A stretch of 48,192 nucleotides of DNA from a virus: the IMG/VR virus record IMGVR_UViG_3300028829_005709, positions 1 through 48,192 of that record, one strand, 5' to 3'. Positions 11,819 to 41,534 of the stretch are shown here, piece after piece. The translations under genes were made by a program, and so were the position numbers. Numbering within the stretch: position 1 is the first letter of the stretch; every line of letters begins with the position of its first letter. A model generated the notes under the pieces. The model worked only from the letters and a program-made list of their open reading frames with translations, made no database searches and was not told the origin of the DNA.

Positions 11819-11837
11819 TTAACAAGTAAATATAAGA
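11819..11837 (+). promoter_or_regulatory. Late-promoter-like motif (variant)
   Basis: TTAACAAGTAAATATAAGA is one of eight plus-strand copies of a motif whose consensus is TTAACAAGTATATATAGA. This copy precedes no ORF; it faces the structured region that follows. It lies just upstream of, and divergent to, the minus-strand promoter at 11774-11802. Confidence 0.6.
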
Positions 11838-11838
11838 G

Positions 11839-12100
11839 ACTGTGAAATAATGCTGCGCCGAATCAAGCGTGAGAGTCGAGACACATCGGGACAAACTAGG
11901 GTAATGTCTAGCATGGGGAACCTAACGATGACTAAGAAAGCGAATGTCAAAAGCACTTAGCGGAAAGCTCTGAATTATGCGTCAAGTGGCGCATTACCAT
12001 AGAATACTCGTGAATTTTAGAAGTAATGAGGTATGTTTAAAAGATTGACAATCGTCTACTCCATAGACATAGATATTCCTGTGCATTTTTGATAAATTAA
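11839..12100 (+). ncRNA. Candidate structured non-coding RNA
   Basis: There is no credible ORF on either strand. Pairings seen by eye: AATGC-GCGCC near 11850 with GGCGCATT (around 11987); the local hairpin ATGCG/CGCAT with an 8-base loop (about 11976-11993); CTAAG/CTTAG (about 11931 and 11957); and AGACA/TGTCT (about 11879 and 11907). Purine-rich single-stranded stretches (GGGGAACC, GCGGAAAGC) separate the stems, as in large folded RNAs. The boundaries are estimated, the 5' end from the late-promoter-like motif. I cannot assign a class; I see no group I intron or RNase P core. Confidence 0.45.
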
Positions 12101-12247
12101 GGAAAGTCAAGTAAAATATTAACTAAATTCTCTACTCCAATTAGGTAGGACTTGAGATAAAAAAATTTGGTGACACAAAAAACAAGCTTTGTCAACCTAA
12201 AAATAAATAAACTTTCTTCTTGACAAACAATAAAACACTCTCTGAAG

Positions 12248-12324
12248 CCAATACAGGCCCATTACAGCACGATAAAAAGCACCTATCCTCTACTACTAAT
12301 AAATAAATTACGTCCAATACAGGC
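12248..12324 (+). repeat. Two direct copies of CCAATACAGGC, 66 bp apart
   Basis: CCAATACAGGC at 12248-12258 and again at 12314-12324. In both copies a CAGCA follows 7-8 bases later, so the repeat unit is about 22 bases long. The area around them (12100-12390) is very AT-rich, has no gene, and contains hairpins such as GGTGACA/TGTC-ACC near 12170-12200. Iterons of a replication origin or operator sites are possible; neither is shown. Confidence 0.45.
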
Positions 12325-12398
12325 AATCCTCAGCATCGGCTAATTCTCCAATAATATCGGATATTTAGGAATAATTAAGAAATAACTTGACAACAGAC

Positions 12399-12415
12399 TT
12401 GGCATGGATCTTGCA
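12399..12415 (+). promoter_or_regulatory. Sigma-54-like promoter element
   Basis: TTGGCATGGATCTTGCA fits the -24/-12 consensus TGGCACG-N4-TTGC with the GG and GC doublets exactly 12 bases apart. A TTGACA lies 6 bases upstream. It points into the gene-poor region before 12700. Confidence 0.4.
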
Positions 12416-12452
12416 TAAAAAAGAAAAGTAAAATAAAGCTTGACATTGAAAG

Positions 12453-12469
12453 TTGGCACGAATATTGCA
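12453..12469 (+). promoter_or_regulatory. Sigma-54-like promoter element (best match)
   Basis: TTGGCACGAATATTGCA matches the sigma-54 consensus at every conserved base, with 12 bases from GG to GC. As in the copy 54 bases upstream, TTGACA precedes it and an A-rich run follows. A third, incomplete TTGGCATG (12493-12500) lacks the -12 half. Confidence 0.45.
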
Positions 12470-12512
12470 ATAAAAAAAGCAGGTGAGGAAAGTTGGCATG
12501 AAAAATCAGTTC

Positions 12513-12541
12513 TTGACACATATAAAAAAATCTGATATAAT
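12513..12541 (+). promoter_or_regulatory. Perfect consensus sigma-70 promoter
   Basis: TTGACA (12513-12518), a 17-base spacer and TATAAT (12536-12541), both hexamers perfect. The predicted start is near 12548. No ORF with a start codon follows the AAGGAGGAGG that lies just downstream, so a small RNA is the likely product. Confidence 0.75.
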
Positions 12542-12547
12542 ATAAGG

Positions 12548-12676
12548 AGGAGGCGGGTAGAATCTCTGTATATAACTAAAACTTGTTTAGAAAACCTCAG
12601 AATAATCATAAGAAATATTTCGGGCAGGGGAGGTGAGAGTCCCTTGCTTCTAAAAGGTCTATAATTAATTATAACA
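12548..12676 (+). ncRNA. Candidate small RNA, about 130 nt
   Basis: Begins close to AAGGAGGAGGCGGG, an unusually strong anti-SD-complementary sequence that is not followed by any start codon at a useful distance. GCAGGGGA (near 12625) pairs with TCCCTTGC over 8 base pairs with an 8-base loop. The 3' end is unknown; transcription may stop near the inverted repeat at 12679-12700. A ribosome- or anti-SD-binding decoy is one idea; there is no direct evidence. Confidence 0.4.
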
Positions 12677-12678
12677 TT

Positions 12679-12699
12679 AAAAAAAGGGTTTTGCAACCC
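12679..12699 (-). terminator. Rho-independent terminator
   Basis: Read on the minus strand: GGGTT-GCAA-AACCC (5-bp stem, GCAA tetraloop) followed by seven T. It lies 15 bases after the stop of the gene at 12714-12908 and ends that minus-strand unit. Confidence 0.8.
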
Positions 12700-12713
12700 C
12701 TAAATCAATTATT

Positions 12714-12908
12714 TTAGTAAAATGCTGCTAAATCATATTGATCGTCTGATAAACACTCTTTAAGGTAGGATAAGACTTCCGAGCTATCATTAGCCCACAA
12801 GTGAAAGCCATCGAACCATCTAGGATCTTGTTCTGTGTCTAATCTGCAAAATACGCTATAGCATGTTAAACCTTGCTCTTGTCCGTCAATTTCGTTACTT
12901 GTAATCAT
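12714..12908 (-). CDS. Hypothetical acidic protein (64 aa)
   Basis: Acidic, with Cys16 and Cys21 in CYSVFC and an aromatic DPRWFDGFHLWAND segment (28-41). Second gene of a two-gene unit ended by a clear terminator. Not recognised. Confidence 0.6.
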   Translation of the reverse strand: MITSNEIDGQEQGLTCYSVFCRLDTEQDPRWFDGFHLWANDSSEVLSYLKECLSDDQYDLAAFY

Positions 12909-12950
12909 TTTAAGTCCTTATGGGACCTAAGTCCCTGTTATTGTTATTGT

Positions 12951-13202
12951 TTATGCTGGTTTACCTGCTGCTAATTGTAGGCTAATTCTCTTTTTAACAT
13001 ATAATGTGTGAATTTTATTTAGTACGTCCTTATTCACCATCTCAGCTAGGATTGTAAAGTCTATAGCAAAATCATTGCTAGGCCAATCACCTAATAGAAT
13101 ATAATAAACCTCTTCATAATCTAGAGAGTCTTGCTCTAGGGCTCTATGTATTAGCTTGCTGTTAGTATTTCGAGTTATGCTTAGTCTTTCAGTATTAGTC
13201 AT
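12951..13202 (-). CDS. Hypothetical protein with VYYILLGD motif (83 aa)
   Basis: The frame is open to 13280, but the ATG at 13202 has an AAAGGA Shine-Dalgarno and lies downstream of the predicted promoter, so I start there. Residues around 31-40 (EEVYYILLGDW) resemble the protein at 11277-11501, suggesting distant paralogy. Helical; function unknown. Confidence 0.6.
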   Translation of the reverse strand: MTNTERLSITRNTNSKLIHRALEQDSLDYEEVYYILLGDWPSNDFAIDFTILAEMVNKDVLNKIHTLYVKKRISLQLAAGKPA

Positions 13203-13240
13203 GTTAAGTCCTTTGGTTGTATGCGTTATGCACATATACA

Positions 13241-13258
13241 TTGCATTCTTTGTGCCAA
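13241..13258 (-). promoter_or_regulatory. Sigma-54-like promoter element
   Basis: Minus strand TTGGCACAAAGAATGCAA: perfect -24 half, a -12 half with one mismatch (ATGC for TTGC), and 12 bases between the doublets. It would start transcription near 13232, 30 bases before the ATG of the gene at 12951-13202. I see no sigma-70 alternative with good hexamers for that gene. Confidence 0.45.
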
Positions 13259-13420
13259 GTAAATTCTCCAGTAATTTCATGTGCCAAAACCTCAGATCAA
13301 ATCTGTTGGTGTCAAACTTACAGTAATCGTATAGAAGTTAGCCAGTAAATAAGATTAGTTGATTGTTGCGGAAATGTTGCAGGGGGGGTGGGTTACTTTA
13401 AATGTTGTGTAGTACTCGTA

Positions 13421-13449
13421 TAGGTCAGAACAAAAGTGGACCTATTTTT
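13421..13449 (+). terminator. Rho-independent terminator-like hairpin
   Basis: TAGGTC (13421-13426) pairs with GACCTA (13439-13444) around a 12-base loop, followed by TTTTT. It ends just before the promoter at 13461 and may insulate it from upstream plus-strand transcription. The stretch 13281-13420 has no gene; it contains a run of seven G near 13382. Confidence 0.55.
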
Positions 13450-13460
13450 GATAATACCTA

Positions 13461-13489
13461 TTGACAAACCTACCTTTATATGATATAGT
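13461..13489 (+). promoter_or_regulatory. Sigma-70-type promoter for the tRNA-like/large RNA
   Basis: TTGACA (13461-13466), a 17-base spacer and TATAGT (13484-13489). The predicted start, about 13496, is the first base of the tRNA-like acceptor stem. CCTACCT (13469-13475) lies in the spacer. Confidence 0.75.
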
Positions 13490-13495
13490 AATAAT

Positions 13496-13563
13496 GTAGA
13501 TGGGACCTGGGTGGCCTGCATTAGAGAGATCTAGTGTATGTAAGTTCGATTCTTACCATCTAC
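13496..13563 (+). ncRNA. tRNA-like cloverleaf without an anticodon loop
   Basis: GTAGATG (13496-13502) pairs perfectly over 7 bp with CATCTAC (13557-13563). The T-arm is canonical: GTAAG-TTCGATT-CTTAC (13540-13556), joined directly to the acceptor stem. The D-arm position has a small GG(A)CC/GGCC hairpin with loop TGGGT (13503-13516). The anticodon position has a 7-bp stem CATTAGA/TCTAGTG closed by a GAGA tetraloop (13519-13536), so no 7-base anticodon loop can form. The whole is 68 nt, shorter than a normal tRNA. It could be an RNase P/CCA-enzyme substrate or mimic, or the 5' domain of the RNA that follows. Confidence 0.6.
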
Positions 13564-13564
13564 G

Positions 13565-14240
13565 GTAGGCGGCGTTGGAAGCTGTGGTCGTGGTACTGGT
13601 AATTCGGGACTATGGACGCTGGAGAACGCACTTATAGCTAGTAAGATTTATATCTGGAGTAGCGAAGCAAAGACCAATCACTGTTTAGCAGCAGTATAGT
13701 AGTCAATGTGTGTAGTGAAGATATAACTGTCAGAGTAGCGACTGGCCCTACCTTTTTTTGATATTTACCGATAACTGGGATTGATAGGTTCGCCAGTAAG
13801 CCCTTGGTGTATGTTTAGCACGTTGGATAGACTCCAGAGGATATGGCAGACCGAGCTTATCAGTTAGCCCTGTTGCTAGTATCAAGTTAAGCTTATCAAA
13901 CGCATGGATGAAAGTCCTGGTTCGCCCTGACTTGAGAAAAGAACAGGGAAAGTTATTTTTCTAGCTTTCTCGGCTAAAGAGCTATATTCAAATGAATAAG
14001 GATTATTCCTAAGAAAGGCTTATTTGACTGAGTTATACTTATTCATTTATTAGCCATAACCTACCTGTAACATTTTACTAACTATCGGGATATACCTCAT
14101 GGTATGTAGGTAGGCTATATATCGCGATTTGCTCGTCTAGGTAGGATTCTATTTTATATTATTTTTAGGATAATGATAGTGGGGCTGTCTACCTCAAGTA
14201 TTTATATGATAGTATAGAGTATATACTACCTCATAGTAAT
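13565..14240 (+). ncRNA. Candidate large structured non-coding RNA (up to about 740 nt with the tRNA-like part)
   Basis: No ORF above noise is seen for 700 bases. Stems found by eye: ACTGG/CCAGT (13774-13778, 13793-13797); CCCTG/CAGGG (13925-13929, 13944-13948); AAGTC/GACTT (13912-13916, 13928-13932); alternative pairings of AAATGAATAAG (around 13993) with CTTATTTGA or CTTATTCATTT; CCTACCT/AGGTAGG (14060-14066, 14108-14114) enclosing ATACC/GGTAT. Repeated words are GAGTAGCGA (13657, 13733) and GGTTCGCC (13787, 13919). Large phage RNAs such as GOLLD and ROOL are typically found beside tRNAs and lack ORFs; this could be one of them or a new class. A T7 run at 13753-13759 might instead end a shorter RNA. 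Confidence 0.5.
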
Positions 14241-14250
14241 AACATACCTA

Positions 14251-14268
14251 TTAACAAGTATTATTAGG
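14251..14268 (+). promoter_or_regulatory. Late-promoter-like motif
   Basis: TTAACAAGTATTATTAGG, one of eight plus-strand copies, 8 bases upstream of the ATG at 14277, so that its 3' end overlaps the Shine-Dalgarno AGGAG. Confidence 0.65.
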
Positions 14269-14276
14269 AGATTATT

Positions 14277-14522
14277 ATGTCAGACAAAATCAACAAAGAA
14301 ATATTAGAATTGCTAGAAAAAAGAAAGCGTGAAGAAATCTCTAAGGTAGGCAAGGAGTCTCGCAGAGAAGCTCGTATTATGGAGAAAGGTAGTCCACTTA
14401 GGGGTAAGGCCAAAGAAGCTCGTGACGAGGCTATGGACTACGCTAAGGCTAAGAAAAAGTACCGTGACGATAATATGAAAAAGAAGAAGTCTAGGTTCTT
14501 GGGAATGTTCAAGAAGGACTAA
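14277..14522 (+). CDS. Highly charged basic helical protein (81 aa)
   Basis: More than half of the residues are Lys, Arg, Glu or Asp; the protein is predicted to be a long helix with a basic C-terminus ending RFLGMFKKD. It stands alone on the plus strand, behind a late-type motif, and converges with a minus-strand operon (4-base overlap of coding ends). The composition suggests a nucleic-acid-associated or packaged virion protein (inference). Confidence 0.65.
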   Translation: MSDKINKEILELLEKRKREEISKVGKESRREARIMEKGSPLRGKAKEARDEAMDYAKAKKKYRDDNMKKKKSRFLGMFKKD

Positions 14523-14710
14523 CGACTATAGGTCGTATCATCAGACCCATCACCAAACGTCCCAAATTGGATATACCATATAATTGCTACCCCCAGTGGG
14601 ATAAAGTACACGTTAATCCAAGGTATCTCTGAGCCCAGTGACACAACTGCTGTATAGGCCACATTACTCCACCAAGCTAATATTAAAAATATTGATGGTT
14701 CATTCTTCAT
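14519..14710 (-). CDS. Membrane protein, two predicted spans (63 aa)
   Basis: Open to 14725, but the ATG at 14710 has the better-placed GAGG. Hydrophobic segments lie at about residues 6-23 and 29-48; the C-terminus is polar. It ends the minus-strand operon with the cytochrome c gene. Not recognised. Confidence 0.58.
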   Translation of the reverse strand: MKNEPSIFLILAWWSNVAYTAVVSLGSEIPWINVYFIPLGVAIIWYIQFGTFGDGSDDTTYSR

Positions 14711-14882
14711 CTTTACCATCCTCATATAAATTCTTAGCTATTGTCCCAAAAAAGTAAGATCCTGTTATCATAACACATGTTAGAGGGAATGATACTAGTA
14801 GTAGAATAGCTCCATATCCTACCAGCATAACCAAAAGCCCTAAAATCATTATCTTTAGGTGTACCACTATAAAGTCTTTCAT
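14700..14882 (-). CDS. Membrane protein, two predicted spans (60 aa)
   Basis: Two hydrophobic helices (about 8-29 and 31-50) separated by a Pro-containing turn; the C-terminal tail is acidic. Its start overlaps the stop of the cytochrome c gene by 4 bases, so it is translated with it and might anchor or partner the cytochrome (inference). Confidence 0.58.
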   Translation of the reverse strand: MKDFIVVHLKIMILGLLVMLVGYGAILLLVSFPLTCVMITGSYFFGTIAKNLYEDGKDEE

Positions 14883-16431: not shown

Positions 16432-16440
16432 TATACCTCC

Positions 16441-17299: not shown

Positions 17300-17454
17300 G
17301 GGTTCATCGCAATCACCATGCTAATCATACCAGCTATTGCAGGAATATTAAATACTAGTATAGTCTTAAGTAGACTAGGATTCATATTGTTAGATATGGT
17401 TGTTGTTGTAATGCTGGCAAACAGGAATAATATTACTATCGCTACTAAATTCAT
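17296..17454 (-). CDS. Membrane micro-protein (52 aa)
   Basis: ATG at 17454 overlaps the stop of the sigma factor gene (ATGA) behind a GAGG, and its stop overlaps the next gene's GTG. Two hydrophobic segments (about 2-17 and 30-49) are separated by a polar SNNMNPS turn. Coupled translation after the sigma factor raises the option of a membrane-bound regulator; no motif supports a specific role. Confidence 0.55.
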   Translation of the reverse strand: MNLVAIVILFLFASITTTTISNNMNPSLLKTILVFNIPAIAGMISMVIAMNP

Positions 17455-17909
17455 TTTAAATCCTCTATTGTTTGTTTATATAGATAAGCTATATTTTGAA
17501 AAGAGCAGTTATACATCTTACTTATATCTACGTTAGAATACCCATTTAATTTATGCTTTAGCACATCTTTTCTTTGTTCCGACATATTATCTATTTTAGT
17601 ATAAAGCCTATTCATTATAACTGACTCATTTATATTATAACACATCTCATATTCTTTGTCAACCTTTTTCATTATATCATCGAATTTAGGTCTTAGGGGT
17701 TTAAAATAAGATATGAGCTTGTAGTATATAGTTTTATATGCGAATGTAGAGAACTTACCTTTTTCGGGATCGAAGTTGTCTGTGGCATTCCATAAGGCTA
17801 TTAAGGCCACCTGATCTATATCATCTCTAGTTCTATGTCCAGAAGGTTTATATCTATTTGATAGTTTATAGGCTAATCCTACATTGTCGTTGAATAACTG
17901 TTCTTTCAT
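17451..17909 (-). CDS. Phage sigma-70-family RNA polymerase sigma factor
   Basis: The 152-residue product has region 2 at about 8-70: DDIDQVALIALWNATDNF with FDPEKGKFSTFAYKTI (46-61), the typical core-binding and -10 melting segments (usual DLxQxGxxGLxxAxxxFDPxxGxxFSTYA). After a 35-residue linker comes a helix-turn-helix (about 108-150, MSEQRKDVLKHKLNG...) that fits region 4. Regions 1 and 3 are absent, as in ECF or phage sigma factors. It should redirect host polymerase, most likely to the eight TTAACAAGTATATATAGA motifs in front of late operons (inference). Confidence 0.88.
   Translation of the reverse strand: MKEQLFNDNVGLAYKLSNRYKPSGHRTRDDIDQVALIALWNATDNFDPEKGKFSTFAYKTIYYKLISYFKPLRPKFDDIMKKVDKEYEMCYNINESVIMNRLYTKIDNMSEQRKDVLKHKLNGYSNVDISKMYNCSFQNIAYLYKQTIEDLK
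17634..17662 (-). promoter_or_regulatory. Perfect sigma-70 promoter inside the sigma factor gene
   Basis: Minus-strand TTGACA (17662-17657), a 17-base spacer and TATAAT (17639-17634), located in the part of the gene that codes for the linker between regions 2 and 4. It would start RNA near 17627 and give separate expression of the downstream membrane, Tat-like, metzincin and cytochrome genes. Confidence 0.6.
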
Positions 17910-18187
17910 TGAATACCCTTCATTACATCTAAATTCTTAGTTTTACCACAAGTACTACATTCTAATACGTCAAATAAGAATCTCTTCTCTAATTTCCATT
18001 TGTGGCTACAAGAAGGGGGATCAGATAGCTTTCCCAGTTGGTCTACATGGTAACTCATCTGAGGAGGGATTAAGTTAGTATCCCAAAATTCTACTAAAAG
18101 TTTACCGCTTTTTCTTACTCTTTTTACTGTACCAACTACATTGCTGGGATGGTGCTTGATTTTTACGCTATCTCCGATTTTAAACAT
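17906..18187 (-). CDS. SH3/KOW-like domain plus zinc-ribbon protein (93 aa)
   Basis: Residues 1-38 (MFKIGDSVKIKHHP, VVGTVKRVRKSGKLLVEF) look like a KOW/SH3 barrel. The C-terminal half has Cys60-x-His and, 16 residues on, CSTCGK (77-82), a zinc ribbon. It overlaps the sigma factor start by 4 bases. A transcription-linked role is plausible because KOW and ribbon domains occur in polymerase-binding factors; this is inference from context. Confidence 0.62.
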   Translation of the reverse strand: MFKIGDSVKIKHHPSNVVGTVKRVRKSGKLLVEFWDTNLIPPQMSYHVDQLGKLSDPPSCSHKWKLEKRFLFDVLECSTCGKTKNLDVMKGIQ

Positions 18188-18221: not shown

Positions 18222-18239
18222 TTAACAAGTATAGGTATA
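18222..18239 (+). promoter_or_regulatory. Late-promoter-like motif
   Basis: TTAACAAGTATAGGTATA, weaker than consensus in its 3' half, 18 bases before the ATG at 18258. CCTACCT (18211-18217) lies immediately upstream. Confidence 0.6.
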
Positions 18240-18257: not shown

Positions 18258-18470
18258 ATGGAACAGAATATCACAACTTGCTCGGTTTGTCAAGCAAATA
18301 AAATAAGAATTAAAAAAGGCTTGTCGCCAAACGGCAAAAGACGTTATTATTCGGATGAGAATGGTAAGGCTTGGAGAGGTAAGGTTTGTCCTTCATGCTC
18401 TAAGAAGAAGCACTCGGATTATATACGTGGAAAACGTGAAGACAAAGAAATAGTAGCTGTCATAGAATAA
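18258..18470 (+). CDS. Zinc-ribbon protein (70 aa), single plus-strand gene
   Basis: CSVC (8-11) and CPSC (44-47) form a four-Cys zinc site around a basic loop (KIRIKKGLSPNGKRRYY), with a basic C-terminus. Good AAGGAG Shine-Dalgarno. It lies alone on the plus strand inside a minus-strand cluster, behind a late-type motif. The architecture resembles small ribbon transcription factors or structural zinc knuckles; I cannot decide. Confidence 0.68.
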   Translation: MEQNITTCSVCQANKIRIKKGLSPNGKRRYYSDENGKAWRGKVCPSCSKKKHSDYIRGKREDKEIVAVIE

Positions 18471-18815: not shown

Positions 18816-19076
18816 TTATAGGTTTGCTACTTTTTCTAAAGATAGTGTTTCAATATCTTCTTCGGTAAAGAATGAAGTAGAGTATTTATTTTCAAAACAA
18901 TTATAATCAACTAATTTAACATATACATTATTAGTTTTAGCGCTATACCATACTTCGCTTTTTACATCTTCTTCCCATAATACAGGAGTAGTTTTTTTAG
19001 TAAACAGTGAGGACAATATATAAACTAGTACAATTAATAAAGCCCATACGATAATAATATTAAGAAACAGGTTCAT
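18816..19076 (-). CDS. Membrane-anchored small protein (86 aa)
   Basis: One N-terminal membrane segment at about residues 4-24 (IIIVWALLIVLVYIL), followed by a polar domain with aromatic strands (VWYSAKTNNVYVKLV) that would face one side of the membrane. Overlaps the upstream gene by 17 bases. Function unknown. Confidence 0.6.
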   Translation of the reverse strand: MNLFLNIIIVWALLIVLVYILSSLFTKKTTPVLWEEDVKSEVWYSAKTNNVYVKLVDYNCFENKYSTSFFTEEDIETLSLEKVANL

Positions 19077-19368
19077 TAGATTCCCCTGATGCGTTATTAG
19101 CTATAGTAGATTTAACTAGGTTAATAAACTCTACTAAAGTCTCTGGAGAGTTTTCTGATACTGTAATATTAGCTCCACCTGTAGCAATAATATCTTTTAC
19201 TGCATTCATAATAACTCCTTGACCATTATATGTAGCATTTAACATATCATTATTATAATCTTCGATAGACATGTTAATAGTCTTTTCTGTGGATTTATTA
19301 GATATGTTATTTGCTAAGTTCTCTAATTGATTTTTTAATAGTGCCACTTCTTCCTCTATTTTTGACAT
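19060..19368 (-). CDS. Hypothetical protein with N-terminal coiled coil (102 aa)
   Basis: Residues 3-25 form a heptad pattern (IEEEVALLKNQLENLANNI); the rest has alternating hydrophobic residues and a Ser/Glu-rich tail. First gene after the perfect promoter at 19403-19431. Not recognised. Confidence 0.6.
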   Translation of the reverse strand: MSKIEEEVALLKNQLENLANNISNKSTEKTINMSIEDYNNDMLNATYNGQGVIMNAVKDIIATGGANITVSENSPETLVEFINLVKSTIANNASGESNEPVS

Positions 19369-19402: not shown

Positions 19403-19431
19403 ATTATAACATATAATAATATATATGTCAA
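19403..19431 (-). promoter_or_regulatory. Perfect consensus sigma-70 promoter
   Basis: Minus-strand TTGACA and TATAAT with a 17-base spacer of alternating A/T. The -35 box overlaps the end of the upstream gene. It drives 19368 and genes to its left, probably including the sigma factor operon if the hairpin at 18501 is leaky. Confidence 0.83.
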
Positions 19432-21622: not shown

Positions 21623-21640
21623 TTAACAAGTATATATAGA
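21623..21640 (+). promoter_or_regulatory. Late-promoter-like motif (consensus copy)
   Basis: TTAACAAGTATATATAGA, the full consensus, in front of the packaging operon. Distance to the first ATG is about 90 bases. Confidence 0.72.
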
Positions 21641-21731
21641 ACAGGTACGCAATAAGCGAAGCTTACAATAAGCAATACTAAATAGATAGGCTATAACGCA
21701 AAGCTGTTACATTTTTTTAAACGGAGATTTG
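21641..21731 (+). promoter_or_regulatory. Leader with two hairpins before the packaging operon
   Basis: TAAGC-GAA-GCTTA forms a 5-bp hairpin just after the motif; further down, TAAC and GTTA enclose GCAAAGCT and are followed by CA and a run of seven T, a weak terminator-like structure 20 bases before the start codon. Attenuation or RNA stability control is possible; only the pairing is seen. Confidence 0.4.
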
Positions 21732-22028
21732 ATGAAAGATAAAATTATATCTATTTTAATGAATATTAACGTACCTATGATAGCTTTTGTTTCTTATATA
21801 TCTAAATTAGTATTATTTCAAGCTACTTTAGCAGATTCTATAATCGTAATAGCCCTAACCTCTTTATTTGGGTACACTAGGTTCTTAGATAAAAGAAATG
21901 TATTGTGGACTAGAGCTGTAGAAAAAGAAATTAGTGAATTAAAACTAAAAGTTCAATCATTAGGGTCTAAACAAAATGCAAGGTCTTTATATGAACAAAA
22001 AGAACAGTCTTCAAAACGAAGATTCTAA
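21732..22028 (+). CDS. Membrane protein at the head of the packaging operon (98 aa)
   Basis: ATG 21732 lies 5 bases after GGAG. Two hydrophobic segments (about 15-33 and 36-50) are followed by a charged coiled-coil tail (60-98). A holin-like topology is possible (two spans, charged C-terminus), as holins sometimes lie near terminase genes, but the phage also has a separate lysis-like island. Overlaps the next gene. Confidence 0.6.
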   Translation: MKDKIISILMNINVPMIAFVSYISKLVLFQATLADSIIVIALTSLFGYTRFLDKRNVLWTRAVEKEISELKLKVQSLGSKQNARSLYEQKEQSSKRRF

Positions 22029-22431
22029 TCTAAAGAATATAAAAGTTCCCAAGAAAAATAATAAAACAAAAAATGAGCTTATAGAAGAATTAAACTCTCT
22101 TAAAAATATTATGTCTAAAAAAGATGACCTAATAGAAAAGATGATGAGTGATATTTCTAATCTAAAGCAGGAAATTAATGCTGCGAAGTCTTTAGAAATG
22201 GACAATGAAGAGCTTATTGCCGAGATGCAATTATCTATGATAAAAGATACTGCTACATCAAGACCTCTAACTTTAGAAGAAGCTCGTAAATATGAAATAT
22301 TTTCTAAAATAAAAAATAATATAAATAAAGATCGTAATGTAATTATAGATTATAGCAATCTACCTGAAAACATGTCAGAAAAAAAGTTACTAGATATAGC
22401 ACAAAAAGCTATTCCGGATAAGGATAGTTAA
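21991..22431 (+). CDS. Coiled-coil protein, possible terminase small subunit (146 aa)
   Basis: ATG 21991 has AAGG at the right distance; the frame extends to 21976. Basic N-terminus (1-35), a coiled coil (about 35-85) and a more globular C-terminus. The stop overlaps the ATG of the terminase large subunit (TAATG), the classic place of TerS, but no helix-turn-helix is clear, so the call rests on position. Confidence 0.55.
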   Translation: MNKKNSLQNEDSNLKNIKVPKKNNKTKNELIEELNSLKNIMSKKDDLIEKMMSDISNLKQEINAAKSLEMDNEELIAEMQLSMIKDTATSRPLTLEEARKYEIFSKIKNNINKDRNVIIDYSNLPENMSEKKLLDIAQKAIPDKDS

Positions 22432-23921
22432 TGAGTGATATAGGAGACTATAACGAAAAAAAAGATATACTAGAAGCAAGAGATATTTTATGGTACAGAG
22501 GTAACATAGAATGGAAACTAGATCCTACGCAAAAAAGGATGTATAAACTATGGAAAGAAAATTCTGAAAAGATTACAGTTATTAATATATCTAGAAGGGT
22601 TGGAAAATCTTACTTTCTGACCATACTTGCTATACAACAGTGTATAAAACAGCCTAAGTCTATCGTAAAGTTTTTACAGCCGGAACAAAAGATGGTTCGT
22701 ACTAACTTAAGACCTATTATGGAGGAGATCTTAGACGATTGTCCTACTAAACTTAGGCCACAATTTAAAACACAAGATAATATATATAAATTTCCTAATG
22801 GAAGTGAGATTCAACTAGCTGGGACAGATGGCGGTAACGCAGAAAAAATTCGTGGTGGTAATGCTGACCTATGTTTAATAGATGAAGCGGCTTTTGTGAA
22901 GAGTGAGCTACGATACCTAGTTAATTCTGTTCTTATTCCTACTACGATGCTTACGAGAGGCAAGATTATACTGTCTTCGACATCTCCTAAAGAAGCTACT
23001 CATGATTTTGCTAAATATATGGAGACTGCAGAGATAAAAGGGACTTTAATACGCTCTACCATCTTCGATGCACTAGATGACAATGAAGGATTAGAAAATC
23101 CACGCTTTACTGAAGAGATTGTTAACGAAATAATAGAAGCTTACCCTAGTGGGATCGCTGATGACGAATTTAGGCGAGAATATATGTGTGAGATCCTCCA
23201 AAACGGAGATAACTCGGTTATTCCCGAATTTACTAACGAATTAGAGGCCGAAATAGTAAAAGAATGGCCTAAGCCTACCTTTTGTGACAAATATGTGTCT
23301 ATGGATATAGGTTTTAGAGATTTAACTGTCGTATTATTTGCATATTATGATTTTGAGAATGCTGTTGCAGTTATAGAAGACGAATTGACTATGAATGGCA
23401 AAAAAATGACTACAAAGAGGCTAGCCGAGGATATAATCCTAAAAGAGAGGCATTTATGGACTGATAAGCTGACTTTAGAGGTTCAGAAGCCATATATGAG
23501 GGTTTCAGATAATAATTTGATAGTAATCAACGATCTCCAAAGATTACATGGAATAACTTTCCTACCTACGCAGAAAGATAATAAAGAATCTGCTGTTAAT
23601 AACACTAGAATCATGATAGGCGGCTATCAAGTATATATAAACCCTAGGTGTACTACGCTTATAAGCCATCTGAAACATGCTACATGGTCTAAATCAAGAG
23701 ACAAGTTTACTAGAAGTCCTGATATGGGTCACTACGATGCTGTCGATGCTTTAGTATATTTACTTAGGAATATAGATAAAAATAAAAACCCTTTTCCTAA
23801 AGGATACGCCCATTCCCACCTCAATGCAGGAGACGGTAAATTCTTAAATCCTTACTATGATGACACCACTTCTAGCAACTCTGTGTTCAAAAAAATGTTT
23901 AATGTGAAAAAAAAGATTTAA
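22431..23921 (+). CDS. terL: Terminase large subunit
   Basis: 496 residues. ATPase domain: Walker A SRRVGKS (54-60), Walker B CLIDE (148-152), coupling motif SSTSP (182-186). The RNase H-like nuclease domain has Asp292 in SMDIGF and a C-terminal YDAVDAL (435-441) giving the other acidic residues. It pumps DNA into the prohead and cuts it. Length and order are normal. It is followed after 21 bases by the portal gene, with a late-type motif between them. Confidence 0.95.
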   Translation: MSDIGDYNEKKDILEARDILWYRGNIEWKLDPTQKRMYKLWKENSEKITVINISRRVGKSYFLTILAIQQCIKQPKSIVKFLQPEQKMVRTNLRPIMEEILDDCPTKLRPQFKTQDNIYKFPNGSEIQLAGTDGGNAEKIRGGNADLCLIDEAAFVKSELRYLVNSVLIPTTMLTRGKIILSSTSPKEATHDFAKYMETAEIKGTLIRSTIFDALDDNEGLENPRFTEEIVNEIIEAYPSGIADDEFRREYMCEILQNGDNSVIPEFTNELEAEIVKEWPKPTFCDKYVSMDIGFRDLTVVLFAYYDFENAVAVIEDELTMNGKKMTTKRLAEDIILKERHLWTDKLTLEVQKPYMRVSDNNLIVINDLQRLHGITFLPTQKDNKESAVNNTRIMIGGYQVYINPRCTTLISHLKHATWSKSRDKFTRSPDMGHYDAVDALVYLLRNIDKNKNPFPKGYAHSHLNAGDGKFLNPYYDDTTSSNSVFKKMFNVKKKI

Positions 23922-23935
23922 CAAGTATAAATAGA
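23918..23935 (+). promoter_or_regulatory. Late-promoter-like motif abutting the portal start
   Basis: TTAACAAGTATAAATAGA, 7 bases before the ATG of the portal gene; the terminal GAGG doubles as the Shine-Dalgarno. If the AT-rich part is a -10 box, the RNA would start within 3 bases of the ATG. Confidence 0.62.
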
Positions 23936-23942: not shown

Positions 23943-25955
23943 ATGGCAAATGACAACGAAACTTACTTTGCGGCAGAAGACGCTGAGAAAACTGCTGCTA
24001 ACTTATTAGGTAAAGCTGATAGTTGGTACAGAGAATTAGACACTAATGGATATTTAGAAAAGCTACGTTTAATGTGGACTTCTTATCATGGCGCATACTA
24101 CTCAGATTTTGGTGATGGCCATACAATTTCGTTTGGTGGCGAACAAGGTGAGCTTGCTAACATGTCCGTTAATCATATAAGAAACTTGGGACAGCATATG
24201 TTAAATATGGTTACTGCTACAAGACCTTCATTACAAGCAAGATCAATTAATACAGATCATAAATCATTAGTACAAGCTAGATTAGGTAATGGAATATTAG
24301 ATTACTACTTAAGAGATAAAAAATTAGAAGACTATTTTAAAGTTGCAGTTGAATACGCTATCGTATTAGGTACTGGCTATATTAAATTAGAATGGAACTC
24401 TATGGTTGGTGACGTTTACGATGTAGATGAAGAGACTGGAGAAGAAATAAGAGAAGGAGAGATTGAATTTTCTAATTTATCTCCTTTTGATGTTGTTGTC
24501 GACTCTAGTAGAGAAGATCAAGACCATGATTGGATTATATGTAGATCATTTAGAAATAGATATGATTTCATAGCAAAATATCCAGAACAAAAAGAAAAGA
24601 TTTTAGGTTTACCAAGCAAATCTGAATTACAAAGTCAGTATTTAGAAAGCTCTTTCTTCAATGATACTGAATTAATACCTGTTTACGAGTTTTACCATAA
24701 GAGATCTGAATCTATGCCTAACGGAAGATTCTTAAGTTTTCTTTCTGAAGACGTAGTACTAAGTGACGGAGATATGCCTTATAGAGATTTGCCTATCTAT
24801 AGAATATCTCCTTCAAATATACTAGGATCTCCTTATGGTTACTCACCTCTATTTGATATACTTCCAATTCAAGATGCTATCAATATGATGTACAGTACAA
24901 TATTAACAAATCAAAATGCATTTGGTGTACAAAACATTTTAGTTCCTCGTGGAGCTGATGTTAGCATTAGTGAATTATCTGGCGGACTTAATATTGTAGA
25001 AGCTAATACACAGTTTGGTGATATAGCTCCTTTAAATTTAACACAAACTCCTGCAGAAGTATTTGAATTCTTAACTACTTTAGAAAGAGCTGCAGAAACT
25101 ATATCTGGAGTAAACTCAGTATCAAGAGGTAATCCTGAAGCTAGTTTAAAATCTGGATCTGCCTTAGCTCTAGTCCAAAGTATGTCTTTACAGTACATAT
25201 CGGGATTACAACAATCTTATGTTCAAATGATCGAAGGTGTTGGAACTGGTATAATAAATATATTAAAAGATTTTGCAGAAGTTCCTAGGATTGCTACAAT
25301 TACAGGCAAGAAAAATAAAACAAGTGCTAAAGAATTTGTAGGAGATGATTTGTCTTCTGTAAATAGAGTTGTTGTTGATATCGGTAACCCTTTATCTAGA
25401 ACTACGGCAGGTAAAATGGAAATGGCACAAGAATTTTTACAGATGGGTTTAATAAAAACTCCTGAACAATACTTCCAAGTTATGAACACTGGAAATTTGG
25501 ATGTGATGGTAGAAAATACTCAAAGTGAGCTAGACTTAATCAGAGATGAAAACGAAAGACTGGTAGAAGGTGGAGATGTTGTAGCTATTGCTATAGATCA
25601 ACACGCTATGCACATAAAAGAGCATAAGTCAGTATTAGCTGATACAGAATTAAGATTAGATGTAGAATTAGCACAAAGAACTTTAAATCATATACAAGAA
25701 CATGTAAATCTACTTAGAAATACTGATCCTGATTTATTAAGTCTAATACAAGAACAGCCTCTTGGGCCTGCTGGCGGTAGTCCTGCTGCTCCTGCTCCAC
25801 AAGGCGGGCCTGCTCCACAAGGCGGGCCTGAGACAGTTCCTCCTGCTCCTCCTGGTGGCCCACAAGCACAAGGACCTGCGCAGCCTGGATTACCAGATCC
25901 TGCCACTCCTCCTGCACCTTTTGAGAATATGCCTACAGATCCTTCGGAGATGTAA
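23943..25955 (+). CDS. Portal protein (670 aa)
   Basis: Sequence features of podovirus-type portals: WYRELDTNGYLEKLRLMWTSYHGAYY near the N-terminus, NHIRNLGQHMLNMVTATRP (about 79-97), a clip/stem region with SPFDVVVDSS and a long C-terminal helical part. Residues after about 605 form a low-complexity Pro/Gly/Gln/Ala tail with repeated APQGGP. The portal dodecamer is the packaging motor docking site and DNA exit. The position directly after TerL supports the call. Confidence 0.88.
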   Translation: MANDNETYFAAEDAEKTAANLLGKADSWYRELDTNGYLEKLRLMWTSYHGAYYSDFGDGHTISFGGEQGELANMSVNHIRNLGQHMLNMVTATRPSLQARSINTDHKSLVQARLGNGILDYYLRDKKLEDYFKVAVEYAIVLGTGYIKLEWNSMVGDVYDVDEETGEEIREGEIEFSNLSPFDVVVDSSREDQDHDWIICRSFRNRYDFIAKYPEQKEKILGLPSKSELQSQYLESSFFNDTELIPVYEFYHKRSESMPNGRFLSFLSEDVVLSDGDMPYRDLPIYRISPSNILGSPYGYSPLFDILPIQDAINMMYSTILTNQNAFGVQNILVPRGADVSISELSGGLNIVEANTQFGDIAPLNLTQTPAEVFEFLTTLERAAETISGVNSVSRGNPEASLKSGSALALVQSMSLQYISGLQQSYVQMIEGVGTGIINILKDFAEVPRIATITGKKNKTSAKEFVGDDLSSVNRVVVDIGNPLSRTTAGKMEMAQEFLQMGLIKTPEQYFQVMNTGNLDVMVENTQSELDLIRDENERLVEGGDVVAIAIDQHAMHIKEHKSVLADTELRLDVELAQRTLNHIQEHVNLLRNTDPDLLSLIQEQPLGPAGGSPAAPAPQGGPAPQGGPETVPPAPPGGPQAQGPAQPGLPDPATPPAPFENMPTDPSEM

Positions 25956-37592: not shown

Positions 37593-37610
37593 TTAACAAG
37601 TATTAATAGA
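37593..37610 (+). promoter_or_regulatory. Late-promoter-like motif
   Basis: TTAACAAGTATTAATAGA starts at the base after the stop of the previous gene, 64 bases before the scaffold ATG. Confidence 0.68.
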
Positions 37611-37673
37611 AGATCTATCCAATTAAGGACGATCATTAACAAACCTATCGAGAGACGGTTAAAGGAGATTAAT

Positions 37674-38681
37674 ATGTCAGAAGATATATCAAATGCATCA
37701 GAGGTTCTAGATTCAATAGACGGAGCTGAAGAAGTAAGTAATGTGCCAGCAGGCGAAGAAGGCGAAGAAGGTTCACTAGATATACAGGATGCTGTGAACG
37801 AAGCACTAGGTGGCGGAGAAGGTCCAGAAGGATCAGAAGAAGAAGAAAATTCAGAAGAAAGTGATTCTGAAAAAAAAGATCTTGAGGAAGAGATCAAATC
37901 CCTAAAAAAGAAATTAAAATTAAAAGTAGATGGAGTTGAAATCGAAGAAGAAATTGATTTCGATGATGATGAGCGTTTAATTAAAGCTTTACAAAAAGAA
38001 AAAGCGTTTGATAGTAGATCTCAAGAATTATCTTCTATGAAGAAACAAGTAACTGATTTCGTAGGAGCTTTGAAAGCTAATCCAGCAAAAGTTTTGGCTG
38101 ATATGGGATTAAGTATGGATGATATTGCTGAAACTCATATTGAGAGTATGATTGAGCAAGCTAAAAAGTCTCCAGATCAGATAGCTAAAGAAGAGATGGA
38201 AAATGAGCTTAGAGCTTTACGTGAAGAAGCTGAAAATGCTAAGAAAATGCAAGAAGATGCTGAAATGGAGAGAATGAGAAATGAACATGCTCAGCAAATT
38301 GAAGTTGACATTAAAGATGCTTTAGGAGATACTGAGTCTATTCTACCAGATAGTAACCCTTGGGTCCTTAGAAAAGTAGCTGAAACTATGCTATTTGCAA
38401 TGAGAAACGGTTATCCAGATGTAACAGCTAAAGATGTTATACCTCTAGTAGAAGATCAGTATAGAACCGACCTAAAAGGTTTATTCGATGTACTTCCTGA
38501 AGAAACTTTAGAAAAGATTATAGGAAAGAATAATCTTGATAGAATGAGAAAAAAGCGTCTTAAGAAAAGACCAAAAACTGCTACACCAAAACAAGCGGTA
38601 AAAACTACCTCAAGTAAGGTAGATAATAGTGGTAAAAGCGAAGATAAGAAGTCATATAAGGACTTTTTTAGTATAACATAA
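37674..38681 (+). CDS. Capsid scaffolding protein (335 aa)
   Basis: Strongly acidic N-terminal 75 residues (EEGEEGS, GSEEEENSEES), a central helical part with coiled-coil character (about 170-215) and a basic C-terminus (RMRKKRLKKRPK) that would contact the coat. This profile and the position before the capsid gene are typical of scaffolds. AAAGGAG Shine-Dalgarno. Confidence 0.85.
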   Translation: MSEDISNASEVLDSIDGAEEVSNVPAGEEGEEGSLDIQDAVNEALGGGEGPEGSEEEENSEESDSEKKDLEEEIKSLKKKLKLKVDGVEIEEEIDFDDDERLIKALQKEKAFDSRSQELSSMKKQVTDFVGALKANPAKVLADMGLSMDDIAETHIESMIEQAKKSPDQIAKEEMENELRALREEAENAKKMQEDAEMERMRNEHAQQIEVDIKDALGDTESILPDSNPWVLRKVAETMLFAMRNGYPDVTAKDVIPLVEDQYRTDLKGLFDVLPEETLEKIIGKNNLDRMRKKRLKKRPKTATPKQAVKTTSSKVDNSGKSEDKKSYKDFFSIT

Positions 38682-38689
38682 TATAGGTT

Positions 38690-38707
38690 TTAACAAGTAT
38701 ATATAGG
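38690..38707 (+). promoter_or_regulatory. Late-promoter-like motif
   Basis: TTAACAAGTATATATAGG, about 125 bases upstream of the ATG at 38832. The stretch between has no ORF; it includes a T-run and hairpin-poor AT-rich sequence. Confidence 0.68.
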
Positions 38708-38831
38708 AATACTCTATTTTATTAATGGAATAGACTTTTTCGTACCCCTCTGGGATCGATTAACACCGAAGCTGTGGCGTAAAAAGAGAGATATTACCAA
38801 TATAAATAAACAATTTTCGGAGGAAAATAAT

Positions 38832-39272
38832 ATGTCAAATGATTTACGACCAAACCCCGATGTACAAAATAGAATGCTTAAGTCGCAAAGACTTCTAGTT
38901 AAGGTAAATATCGTTAGTGATGCTGATCCTGCTAGTAAGACTTTAAATGACGATTCTTCTATTGCTACATTAAGATGTGAAGGCCAAACAGCTAAAGCTG
39001 ATGCTAAAGAAGATGTTTCTGCTGTTGCTACTACTGCTGCTGATGCCACTGGTATTTTCAGTGTTTTAATTGATGAAGCTAATGTTGATCAAATTTATAA
39101 GGTTGACTTACAGTCTTCTAGTGGTACTGTTGCTCTTGGAGCTGCTGGTGCCGTTGTTACTGCAGGAAAAAGAATGCTAATTGATTTAGACTCTAGTTTA
39201 GATCTTTCAACTGCTGCTGGTGCCGTAGAAAGCGAATTCACACTAGTTATCGATTATTCGGTAAGCAAATAA
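38832..39272 (+). CDS. Probable capsid decoration/head-associated protein (146 aa)
   Basis: Ala/Val/Ser-rich beta-type protein immediately upstream of the major capsid gene. Both genes have the same Shine-Dalgarno context (CGGAGGAAA-TAATAT). Ends in LVIDYSVSK. The size and place fit a head decoration or stabilisation protein; no specific family recognised. Confidence 0.68.
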   Translation: MSNDLRPNPDVQNRMLKSQRLLVKVNIVSDADPASKTLNDDSSIATLRCEGQTAKADAKEDVSAVATTAADATGIFSVLIDEANVDQIYKVDLQSSSGTVALGAAGAVVTAGKRMLIDLDSSLDLSTAAGAVESEFTLVIDYSVSK

Positions 39273-39298
39273 TTAAACAATTTCGGAGGAAATAATAT

Positions 39299-40522
39299 AT
39301 GTCAAGTTCAGCAAATACGCTAGATACGCTAAACGGCCTTTTTAAGGAAGTTTATGCTAAAGATCTAGAAGAATTAATACCTGATGGTGTTAAACTTTTA
39401 AATAAAATCCCTTTTGCTAAAAAAGAACAGCAATTAGGTAATTTCTATCACCAACCTGTTGTTTTAGGACACGAGCATGGTGTAACTTTCGCTCAATCAG
39501 GCGAAGATGCATTTAATTTAAATGCTCCTGTTGCTGGTAAAATTAAAGATGCTACAGTTCGTGGTACTCAATTAGTTTTACGTTCTGTGATGGGTTATAC
39601 TTCTGCGTCTCGTTCTGCAGAAGGCGGAGCTAAAGCTTTTAAACAAGCTACTAAGTTCTTAGTTGGTAACATGCTTAGATCTGTTACTAAAAAATTAGAA
39701 ATCGAATTACTTTATGGTCAATCTGGATACGGTGAAGTTGCTTCAATAGCTGGTAGTGTAGTTACTATTTCTACGGCTGAATGGGCTCCTGGTATTTGGG
39801 CTGGTGCTGAAGATATGCCAATTGAAATTTTATCGGCTGACGGTTTAACTTCTAGAGGCGAAACTTCTATTTCTGCAGTAGATTTTGACAACAGAGCTGT
39901 TACTTTAAGTAGCGTTCCTGCTGGCATAGTTGCTACAGATGTAATTTACCATAAAGGTGCTTTCGGTAACGAATTCGCTGGTATCCATAAAATTATCACC
40001 AATACTAGTTCTCTTTTCGGCATTTCTGCTACTGAGTTCAGTCTTTGGAAGGGTAATGAGTATGGTGCAGGTTCTGCTGCTTTATCTTTCAACAAAATCC
40101 AAATAGCTATCGCTAGAGCGGTTGAGAAGGGTTTAGATAGTGATGTAATGGTTTTAGTTAACCCTAAAACATGGGCAGATATCCTAAATGACCAAGCAGC
40201 TATGAGACGTTTCGACAGTTCTTATGGTAGTGATAAGTCTAGTAACGGTGCTAGAAGTATCGAATTTCACGGCCAAAATGGTATGATTGAAATCGTTCCT
40301 TCTATTTACTGTAAAGAAGGGTACTCTTACGTTATGTCTATGGATGAAATGGTTCGTATCGGTTCTACTGATGTGACTTTCAGACGACCAGGAAAAGGCG
40401 ATGAGTTCTTTAGAGATTTAGAGAACAGTGCTGGTTATGAGCTTAGAGCTTATACTGATCAAGCATTATTCTGTCACGCTCCAGGACGTAATGTTCTAAT
40501 TTCAGGAATTGTTAATACTTAA
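39299..40522 (+). CDS. Major capsid protein (407 aa)
   Basis: Typical coat gene: strong Shine-Dalgarno GGAGG, less extreme AT content and preferred codons, followed by a strong terminator. N-terminal LFKEVYAKDLEELIPDGVKLLNKIPF, then TQLVLRSVMGYTSASRS (about 97-113) and C-terminal FRRPGKGDEFFRDLENSAGYELRAYTDQAL; these fit HK97-fold coats of podovirus-like phages. Confidence 0.88.
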   Translation: MSSSANTLDTLNGLFKEVYAKDLEELIPDGVKLLNKIPFAKKEQQLGNFYHQPVVLGHEHGVTFAQSGEDAFNLNAPVAGKIKDATVRGTQLVLRSVMGYTSASRSAEGGAKAFKQATKFLVGNMLRSVTKKLEIELLYGQSGYGEVASIAGSVVTISTAEWAPGIWAGAEDMPIEILSADGLTSRGETSISAVDFDNRAVTLSSVPAGIVATDVIYHKGAFGNEFAGIHKIITNTSSLFGISATEFSLWKGNEYGAGSAALSFNKIQIAIARAVEKGLDSDVMVLVNPKTWADILNDQAAMRRFDSSYGSDKSSNGARSIEFHGQNGMIEIVPSIYCKEGYSYVMSMDEMVRIGSTDVTFRRPGKGDEFFRDLENSAGYELRAYTDQALFCHAPGRNVLISGIVNT

Positions 40523-40553
40523 TTATTAACAAATAATATTCAGAGATTTAAAG

Positions 40554-40578
40554 GGGAAGTTTTTACTTCCCTTTTTTT
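40554..40578 (+). terminator. Rho-independent terminator after the capsid gene
   Basis: GGGAAG-(TTTTTA)-CTTCCC followed by seven T. It ends the late capsid unit 30 bases downstream of the capsid stop and separates it from the converging minus-strand island. Confidence 0.88.
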
Positions 40579-40581
40579 ATG

Positions 40582-40737
40582 CTATCCTCTCTCTAGTGTT
40601 TTTATTCTTATACTAAGAGCTGCTATCCCCGCTATAAGCAAAGATAAACATGCGATTGGTCCTATAGTATTATCATATACTAAGAAGCCAGCAATAAAGC
40701 AAGTATGACAGCCTGCTATCTTAAGTACTATTTTCAT
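40582..40737 (-). CDS. Small membrane protein in the lysis-like island (51 aa)
   Basis: Two hydrophobic segments (about 3-21 and 26-44) and a basic C-terminus (RIKTLERG). GGAG precedes the ATG inside the upstream micro-ORF. Holin-like in size and topology, but with Cys residues and no known family. Confidence 0.52.
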   Translation of the reverse strand: MKIVLKIAGCHTCFIAGFLVYDNTIGPIACLSLLIAGIAALSIRIKTLERG

Positions 40738-40809
40738 CTACTCTCCTATAAAAACTAGTGTTACCATTAAAAATATCAATGTTGTCATATGTATAGGTTC
40801 AATACACAT
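40738..40809 (-). CDS. Membrane micro-ORF (23 aa)
   Basis: ATG overlaps the stop of the M15 peptidase gene (TAATG), and its stop abuts the next gene. Almost entirely hydrophobic (TTLIFLMVTLVFIGE). It may encode a tiny membrane peptide or merely serve coupling; weak evidence. Confidence 0.35.
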   Translation of the reverse strand: MCIEPIHMTTLIFLMVTLVFIGE

Positions 40810-41237
40810 TACACGAATTGGATGTGAAAATGCTTTCCAAGTTTCTTACCTTTACTATTAGTAACCTCATGATATTTAGCAGTCCAAGCATACCCGTTAT
40901 CACTGTTATGTTTACTATTTAAATAATTTTTTATGGCCTTAATTTCCTTATTAGTGAACATCTTAGTTCTAATATCAAAGGCTGTCCATATCTGATGTGG
41001 AGATTTCCAAGGCTTTTCATCATATTTTCTAATACCTCTAACAACTCCTGAATAGATCATATCCTGCTCTTCTTTTGTTCTTTGTATCATAGTAAGTACT
41101 ATATCTTTACCAAAAGCTCTTAAAACATAATACTTCAGTCCTTTTAATATATCATATAAAGCAGGGTTAAGAGTTTCTAGTCTAACTAGTTCGTCCTTTA
41201 AACGCTGACTATTATTTTTTACTTTAATAAATCCCAT
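40809..41237 (-). CDS. M15-family peptidase, probable endolysin (142 aa)
   Basis: The long upstream extension lacks a start with Shine-Dalgarno; ATG 41237 has AGAGG 7 bases before. Zinc-site motifs of M15 D-Ala peptidases: SPHQIWTAFDIR (about 79-90), with His81 and Asp88, and the terminal HFHIQF with its His (about 136-141); WTAKYHEV supplies the Glu/His region. It should cut stem peptides of peptidoglycan. It complements the GH24 lysozyme on the other strand. Confidence 0.8.
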   Translation of the reverse strand: MGFIKVKNNSQRLKDELVRLETLNPALYDILKGLKYYVLRAFGKDIVLTMIQRTKEEQDMIYSGVVRGIRKYDEKPWKSPHQIWTAFDIRTKMFTNKEIKAIKNYLNSKHNSDNGYAWTAKYHEVTNSKGKKLGKHFHIQFV

Positions 41238-41475
41238 TATCATCCTCTTCTTGGCTACCATTAGGTAGTCTGCCACAGCTATCACATACCATATATTCTT
41301 GTTCAGTATCCTCATTTTTATATATCCAAGCATGAGGCTTGCAATTAGCAGGTTTTATCCTTGTTTTCTTATTTGATAACAGTTCATGCACAAATCCATA
41401 TATAAAAGGTAGCATAACTAGCGTAGGATCGATTTGAAACAATAATATACTTAATAAGGTCATAATAAATATCAT
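41224..41475 (-). CDS. Membrane protein with C-terminal zinc motif (83 aa)
   Basis: The frame is open to 41523, but the promoter at 41482-41510 would start RNA near 41475, exactly at an ATG; ATG 41463 is the next option. One or two hydrophobic segments (about 1-30) are followed by CKPH and CDSCGR (about 45-67), a probable zinc site. It overlaps the peptidase gene by 14 bases. Confidence 0.55.
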   Translation of the reverse strand: MIFIMTLLSILLFQIDPTLVMLPFIYGFVHELLSNKKTRIKPANCKPHAWIYKNEDTEQEYMVCDSCGRLPNGSQEEDDNGIY

Positions 41476-41481
41476 ATAGTC

Positions 41482-41510
41482 ACTATAACACATAAAACTG
41501 CCTTTGTCAA
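41482..41510 (-). promoter_or_regulatory. Host sigma-70-type promoter of the minus-strand island
   Basis: TTGACA (41510-41505), a 17-base spacer and TATAGT (41487-41482). It lies back-to-back with the late-type motif at 41517. It gives the peptidase island host-type, not late-type, expression. Confidence 0.8.
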
Positions 41511-41516
41511 GTCTTT

Positions 41517-41534
41517 TTAACAAGTATATATAGA
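41517..41534 (+). promoter_or_regulatory. Late-promoter-like motif (consensus copy)
   Basis: TTAACAAGTATATATAGA, 26 bases before the TTG start of the gene at 41560. Confidence 0.72.

Follow-up and report, generated by a model that had tools for sequence, protein, structure and literature searches.

The middle/late promoters of phage phiEco32 have a single element, tAATGTAtA, with transcription starting 6–8 bp downstream, and the phage sigma factor gp36 lacks region 4 (PMC8948821). Phage 7-11 has a two-part promoter, GTAAtg-(16)-aCTA, and its sigma factor gp47 contains region 4 (PMC8948821). T4 late promoters are served by gp55, gp33 and gp45 (PMC2988020), and the late promoter of the AR9 non-virion RNA polymerase is AACA-(6N)-TA/G (PMC5312081).

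We analyzed 48,192 bases of the genome of a tailed phage (the window, meaning the whole stretch of DNA under study), which lack about 32 kb of that genome, as estimated from the lengths of its relatives. A repeated block, TTAACAAGTATATAT, stands ahead of the late genes and very probably marks their transcription start. The motif works like the phiEco32, 7-11, T4 and AR9 systems, and we do not claim membership in any single one. As in phiEco32, terL, portal, scaffold and capsid genes share one strand with early genes opposite, and one-element promoters stand at the heads of late-strand operons; phiEco32 reads these with the host core and a small phage sigma, whereas the corresponding reader here is a candidate. 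The promoter is not of the phiEco32 type proper, since TTAACAAnT replaces tAATGTAtA. The window sigma also has an ECF-type full-length match, unlike gp36, and a sigma is not recognizable in most relatives. With 7-11 the window shares a phage sigma containing region 4, which drives late genes in 7-11 and is a candidate for doing so here, but the promoter there is bipartite and here is one block with nothing at −35. In the phiEco32/7-11 pair, region 4 goes with the two-part promoter; the reverse is seen here, and an ECF-type, region 4-containing sigma on a one-element promoter would be a combination absent from that pair. T4 late promoters similarly have a single block near −10, no −35 conservation and several copies ahead of late genes. 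The T4 late box reads TATAAATA, in place of which the window has TTAACAAnT, together with an ECF-like sigma. The AR9 promoter resembles the motif in its AACA block, in a T followed by an A/G start and in having no other element. The arrangement here is AACA-(8N)-T-A/G, however, and AR9 relies on a multisubunit polymerase encoded by the phage; we found no sign of one here. Among the papers listed by a literature search for the motif, none pointed to it as a late promoter of phages.

All eight copies of the TTAACAAG-type block listed in the original prediction are on the plus strand exactly where it had placed them (Table 1). Their predicted location in or at the edges of gaps also holds, as copy 5 overlaps the final terL codons, copy 6 directly follows a stop codon and the rest lie in gaps. 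Scanning the window with TTAACAAGTATATATAGA at up to three mismatches gave 8 matches, compared to 0.39 ± 0.57 in shuffles, and 0 on the minus strand, which agrees with the claim that this strand has none. Seven of the 8 are listed copies; the other, at 23624, is inside terL and lacks TTAAC, and listed copy 14251 has more than three mismatches to TTAACAAGTATATATAGA. The octamer TTAACAAG alone has two extra plus copies (3222 and 8440) and one minus copy (7642), and its strand pattern by itself is not perfectly clean. These further plus-strand TTAACAAGTA copies lie within or between minus-strand genes and are probably due to chance; the one at 8440 has T at −1 and G at +1. Copies equally common on the minus strand when a full genome is scanned had been named as a finding that would overturn the prediction. 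This was not seen in the closest relative, the complete-length G025, where all ten TTAACAAGT copies (10/10) are on the late strand.

Table 1. Predicted promoters and associated genes in the window
Feature	Position	Strand	Remarks
Late promoter copy 1 (predicted), TTAACAAGTAAATAT	11819-11833	+	Predicted +1 = 11834 (A)
Late promoter copy 2 (predicted)	14251-14265	+	Predicted +1 = 14266; ahead of 81-aa gene 14277-14522
Late promoter copy 3 (predicted)	18222-18236	+	Predicted +1 = 18237; ahead of 70-aa CxxC-containing gene 18258-18470
Late promoter copy 4 (predicted)	21623-21637	+	Predicted +1 = 21638; head of packaging operon
Packaging operon	21729-22028, 21976-22431, terL 22431-23921	+	Behind copy 4
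Late promoter copy 5 (predicted)	23918-23932	+	Predicted +1 = 23933; ahead of portal 23943-25955
Late promoter copy 6 (predicted)	37593-37607	+	Predicted +1 = 37608; ahead of 37674-38681
Late promoter copy 7 (predicted)	38690-38704	+	Predicted +1 = 38705; ahead of 38832-39272 and major capsid 39299-40522
Late promoter copy 8 (predicted)	41517-41531	+	Predicted +1 = 41532; ahead of 41560-42045 and fibre-like 42055-46314
ECF-like sigma factor, 152 aa, candidate motif reader	17451-17909	-	PF04542 1.9e-11; TIGR02937 7.1e-17
93-aa gene	17906-18187	-	Same operon, upstream of and overlapping sigma gene
Sigma-70-like promoter of sigma operon	18265-18293	-	TTGACA-17-TATTCT, TG before second hexamer
Perfect sigma-70 consensus	19403-19431	-	Ahead of minus-strand gene 19060-19368
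Other good sigma-70 sites	21608-21580, 11244-11216, 7222-7194, 5956-5928	-	Consensus matches

The late-type genes of the window, encoding terminase, a P22-like portal, lysozyme, major capsid and fibres, are on the plus strand, and the small genes left of 21.6 kb are mostly on the minus strand. The motif precedes the portal gene in relatives as well. The gene behind copy 6 is conserved in 19/19 genomes and is the scaffold by position. The CxxC gene family occurs in 11/19 genomes, and the motif precedes its member in G004, G019 and G023 too. No convincing plus-strand gene was found in the 2.4-kb stretch behind copy 1 (11.8–14.2 kb), a region that also contains a perfect sigma-70 consensus (12513-12541, +). 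There, a sigma-70-like promoter (13461-13489) lies directly ahead of a degenerate tRNA-like fold (13496-13564, +; RF00005, 23.6 bits, below the 29-bit cut-off); no RNA family reached its gathering score in the window. Elsewhere on the minus strand, three proteins (2301-3086, 3086-4603 and 9545-10756) share ‘GVExEF’ and ‘CGxHVHxD’ stretches and look like putative amidoligase-type enzymes, adjoining a glutamine-amidotransferase-like protein (4603-5889).

A terminase search retrieved more than 80 loci plus 18 other near-complete genomes of about 79–96 kb, several with terminal repeats such as arise when a circle is assembled (G002, G004, G010, G017, G018, G021 and G023). A scan of bacterial genome bins added G025, an 82,488-base contig in bin NORP111 whose terL is 67% identical, and G026, an 81,385-base contig with a terminase 53% identical. 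Whole or near-whole phage genomes of the group are contigs in bacterial bins labeled Proteobacteria (NVTQ01000001.1, L189), Bacteroidales (CAIWIS010000237.1, L190) and Bacteroidia (JALHRL010000022.1, L191); the labels conflict and so leave the host undecided. No repeated motif of this kind is seen in CP017838, the nearest cultured relative found (Silvanigrella host, portal 29%). In G004, the ribonucleotide reductase (62741-65626) has 961 aa compared to 624 aa in G002, and its mid-protein insert resembles an intein that carries features of a homing endonuclease.

Most of the roughly 20 relatives, down to a terminase identity of about 40%, have the block of the window at the heads of their late-strand operons. 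Unsupervised de novo searches upstream of late-strand operon heads, performed genome by genome, gave a top motif of the same kind in most relatives (TTAACAAGTAT, TTAACAAGTTAG, TTAACAAATA, TTAACAACTATA, TTAACAACTTATA or a close variant), with drifted forms in G011 (TAACACCCTTATAT) and G022 (TTTAACATATAT). In G004, G013 and G015, where no sigma was recognized, the predicted promoters have the forms TTAACAAC/TTAACAAA. The motif was weak or not found by this search of operon heads in G018, G021 and G024. As a control, the known phiEco32 element TAATGTATA was recovered, ranked second, and only in phiEco32. When each genome was scored with a matrix built from the others, the late strand had 97 strong matches immediately ahead of genes and the opposite strand had 13, the relatives being non-independent samples; noncoding DNA among phages so distant should nonetheless be well scrambled. 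Whole-genome motif-like matches at 12 bits were only modestly above the reversed-sequence null (223 versus 171), so it is the placement of the matches, and not their number, that carries the signal. The promoter role itself and its late timing we infer from sequence, and comparison across relatives strongly supports the single-block late promoter of the original prediction.

The position of the start is indicated by three signals. Since gene starts came from a simple caller, the start-codon count was redone without it, recording for each motif copy the position of an ATG that opens a frame of at least 60 codons. Start codons peak 15 nt from the first T of the motif (22 sites, C/G forms), compared to 4 at 14, 3 at 16, 11 at 17 and 0–2 at 18–20, with a broad class from 21 up; shuffled words of the same letters gave a nearly flat 0–3 at every offset. 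The smaller, second excess at offset 17 counts against the reading favored here; some of its ATGs are within coding stretches, and others may belong to genes whose leader is two bases long. Three leaderless genes, in G002 and G026, have motifs of the TTAACAAGT class, which is also that of the window. The second signal is an initiator: among 119 aligned sites, T is at −1 in 71% and a purine at +1 in 91%, mostly outside the positions fixed by the search patterns, and in the window T(−1) and A(+1) occur at all eight copies. Shine–Dalgarno sequences beginning at +1 are the third. The predicted mRNA of copy 2 begins AGGAGATTATTATG, with the Shine–Dalgarno at its very 5′ end, and that of copy 5 begins AGAGGTATTAATG, with the Shine–Dalgarno from the first RNA base. 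From these signals we infer a start 15 bases past the first T, and a start fixed there predicts two classes, genes that are leaderless and genes with a leader long enough for a Shine–Dalgarno sequence. We rejected the idea that the leaders serve to form RNA structures, as those of the window fold no better than shuffles. The scaffold-gene leader is alike in several relatives, UAUCCrAUUAaGGAC or ‘accgcactaacg’ (window 37608-37673; L234:17732-17800), and is possibly an RNA element; it folds better than shuffles in G025 (z −2.4) and not in the window (z −0.7).

Upstream of −18 nothing is conserved, with information at or below 0.08 bit from −19 back to −60 (119 sites). In addition, 12 back-to-back divergent motif pairs were found compared to 0.22 expected, some overlapping as AGTTGTTAACAACT, and the same pair count gave 0 convergent or tandem pairs. 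The lack of upstream conservation, together with divergent pairs that leave no room for a −35 element, indicates a one-element promoter. The motif shares with the one-element phage late promoters of the phiEco32 or T4-late kind a single block near the start, nothing at −35, and copies that precede late operons on the coding strand. A T4-like reading with the TATATATA half as the recognized part was dropped, since G002 keeps TTAACAAGTTAG and loses TATA. Examples of back-to-back or overlapping divergent copies are at G015 5570, G017 58819, G024 1473, L065 2472, L067 2750, L069 5845, L071 1145 and L081 2589, and a leaderless endolysin gene is often at one side of such pairs. Leaderless genes with the motif on the opposite strand include those for endolysins and an HNH endonuclease, which are late-type functions, so the motif tends to follow late-type function, not strand; only a minority of opposite-strand late-type genes have it.

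The lack of a partner also bears on host sigma-70 holoenzyme, which could in principle read the motif as a −10 or a −35 (TTAACA) element. TTAACA is similar to TTGACA and the 3′ half of the motif is TATA-rich, but the 119-site profile has no partner hexamer 16–18 bp away on either side, the strongest conservation falls on AACAA, which is no sigma-70 element, and good sigma-70 sites precede the other gene set. We regard this reading as very improbable. Action of the motif in RNA, as a cleavage or translation signal, would suit its usual position just upstream of start codons, often touching the Shine–Dalgarno sequence. Several observations make this very improbable. Terminator-like hairpins lie just upstream at 8/212 gene-linked sites, compared to 0.55 in shuffles, and where such a hairpin abuts the motif (for example L018 4039 and L019 4178), upstream RNA would stop where the motif begins. 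Overlapping divergent copies are read from both strands, the T(−1)/R(+1) initiator is independent, and the mRNA of leaderless genes would not carry the motif.

The original prediction that the phage encodes its own sigma factor is borne out. The window product has a confident region 2 (PF04542, 44.1 bits) and an ECF-type match to TIGR02937 of 61.5 bits over residues 3–152 (cut-off 42.9). Region 2 is certain, and region 4 is supported by the full-length match, as region 4 alone is weak (PF08281, E 0.06). With regions 2 and 4, no region 3 and a length within about 150–200 aa, the protein agrees with an ECF-type sigma-70 factor. No relatives of it were found in viral contigs, and an AlphaFold model from the single sequence has a pLDDT of 44. 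The minus-strand genes were predicted to have sigma-70 promoters, and this holds in part. Between 1 and 20 kb there are 121 sites compared to 95.6 ± 8.9 expected, and those at 19431, 11244, 7222 and 5956 have 11–12/12 matches, each about 20–40 nt before a minus-strand gene; between 20 and 40 kb there is no excess (80 versus 80.2). A sigma-70-type promoter on the sigma operon, together with these near-perfect sites, fits an early-to-late cascade. The proposed sigma cascade is in tension, however, with the finding that most motif-bearing relatives have no recognizable sigma.

Small sigmas similar to that of the window are present in G025, G002 and G010, barely alignable to each other, and G026 probably encodes one too, so that about 5/21 genomes have a recognizable sigma. 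Pfam and PHROG models detected none in the remaining genomes; PF08281/PF04545 matches in G016 and G017 proved to be an exonuclease-type protein and a resolvase. In a pooled NCBIfam scan of 95 mid-sized proteins from G004, G009, G013 and G015 plus four sigma controls, TIGR02937 was matched by exactly four members, which the output leaves unnamed, and we found no sigma in these four motif-bearing genomes. Either the sigma drifted past recognition in most relatives or another factor reads the promoter.

The motif is conserved across the group while the sigma is not, and a different, group-wide phage factor may read the same one-element promoter, with the ECF-like sigma serving other genes or being an accessory. 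Such a reader could be a sigma too diverged to recognize, or the universal 121–203-aa family cl14 with its neighbor cl51. All 20 relatives that are complete or nearly so contain cl14, and 17 of the 20 contain cl51 beside it, both on the strand opposite to the late genes. However, neither has a known function or relatives, nothing ties either to transcription and the link is a guess; the cl14 structure model is also of low confidence (mean pLDDT 65). In addition, phage sigmas diverge fast, those of phiEco32 and 7-11 being 15% identical (PMC8948821), and a sigma may simply have been missed. Region 4 of the window sigma counts against its reading the motif because the promoter offers no −35 target. 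We consider a different reader unlikely on balance, though a serious competitor. In G002, cl14 and cl51 are adjacent at 65653-66222 and 66155-66583 (−), with homologues in nearly all relatives; cl14 has a conserved RNNxRNR stretch, cl51 has one or two repeat copies, and genomes with two copies seem to be those whose motif takes the form TTAACAACT.

The likeness to the AR9 late promoter (PMC5312081) and the compactness of the block, with the predicted start directly behind it, raise the question of whether a phage-encoded RNA polymerase, of the T7 type or multisubunit like that of AR9, reads the motif. This is highly unlikely. The single-subunit polymerase gene expected with a T7-type promoter was not found, PF00940 having 0 matches in 19 genomes (T7 control 1e-109; the window itself is incomplete), and the complete G002 and G004 have no unexplained early-strand protein of polymerase size. 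The beta-prime catalytic motif occurs in no long frame; a single DFDGD, in a G019 frame of 90 residues, is a chance match.

We therefore return to the reading that we favor and hold to be probable, a phage-specific one-element late promoter used by the host core with a phage factor. The factor in the window phage is most likely the ECF-like sigma. The promoter would run from −15 to −1 as TTAACAAGTATATAT, followed from +1 by AG(A/G). Positions −15 to −7 (TTAACAA-n-T) would be the recognized block, and the A+T-rich stretch behind it would aid opening. RNA would start 15 bases past the first T, at a purine (A or G) that follows a T, with no −35 box. The sigma, made early from its sigma-70-type promoter, would redirect the host RNA polymerase core to the packaging, portal, scaffold, capsid and fibre genes and to some small late genes.

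More tentatively, the phage group of about 80–95 kb may share the late promoter TTAACAAnTATA-T|R, read by a universal factor not recognizable as a sigma and driving leaderless genes as well as back-to-back bidirectional promoters with upstream ends in common. The spacing of leaderless genes allows the starts of late genes to be predicted to the single base from sequence alone, in a large group of phages for which metagenomes are nearly the only source. The promoter is constant across terminases about 40% identical and the expected sigma is found in few of these phages, which poses the question of the reader. Once found, that reader would either reveal the extent to which phage sigmas can drift or represent a new type of protein that redirects polymerase.
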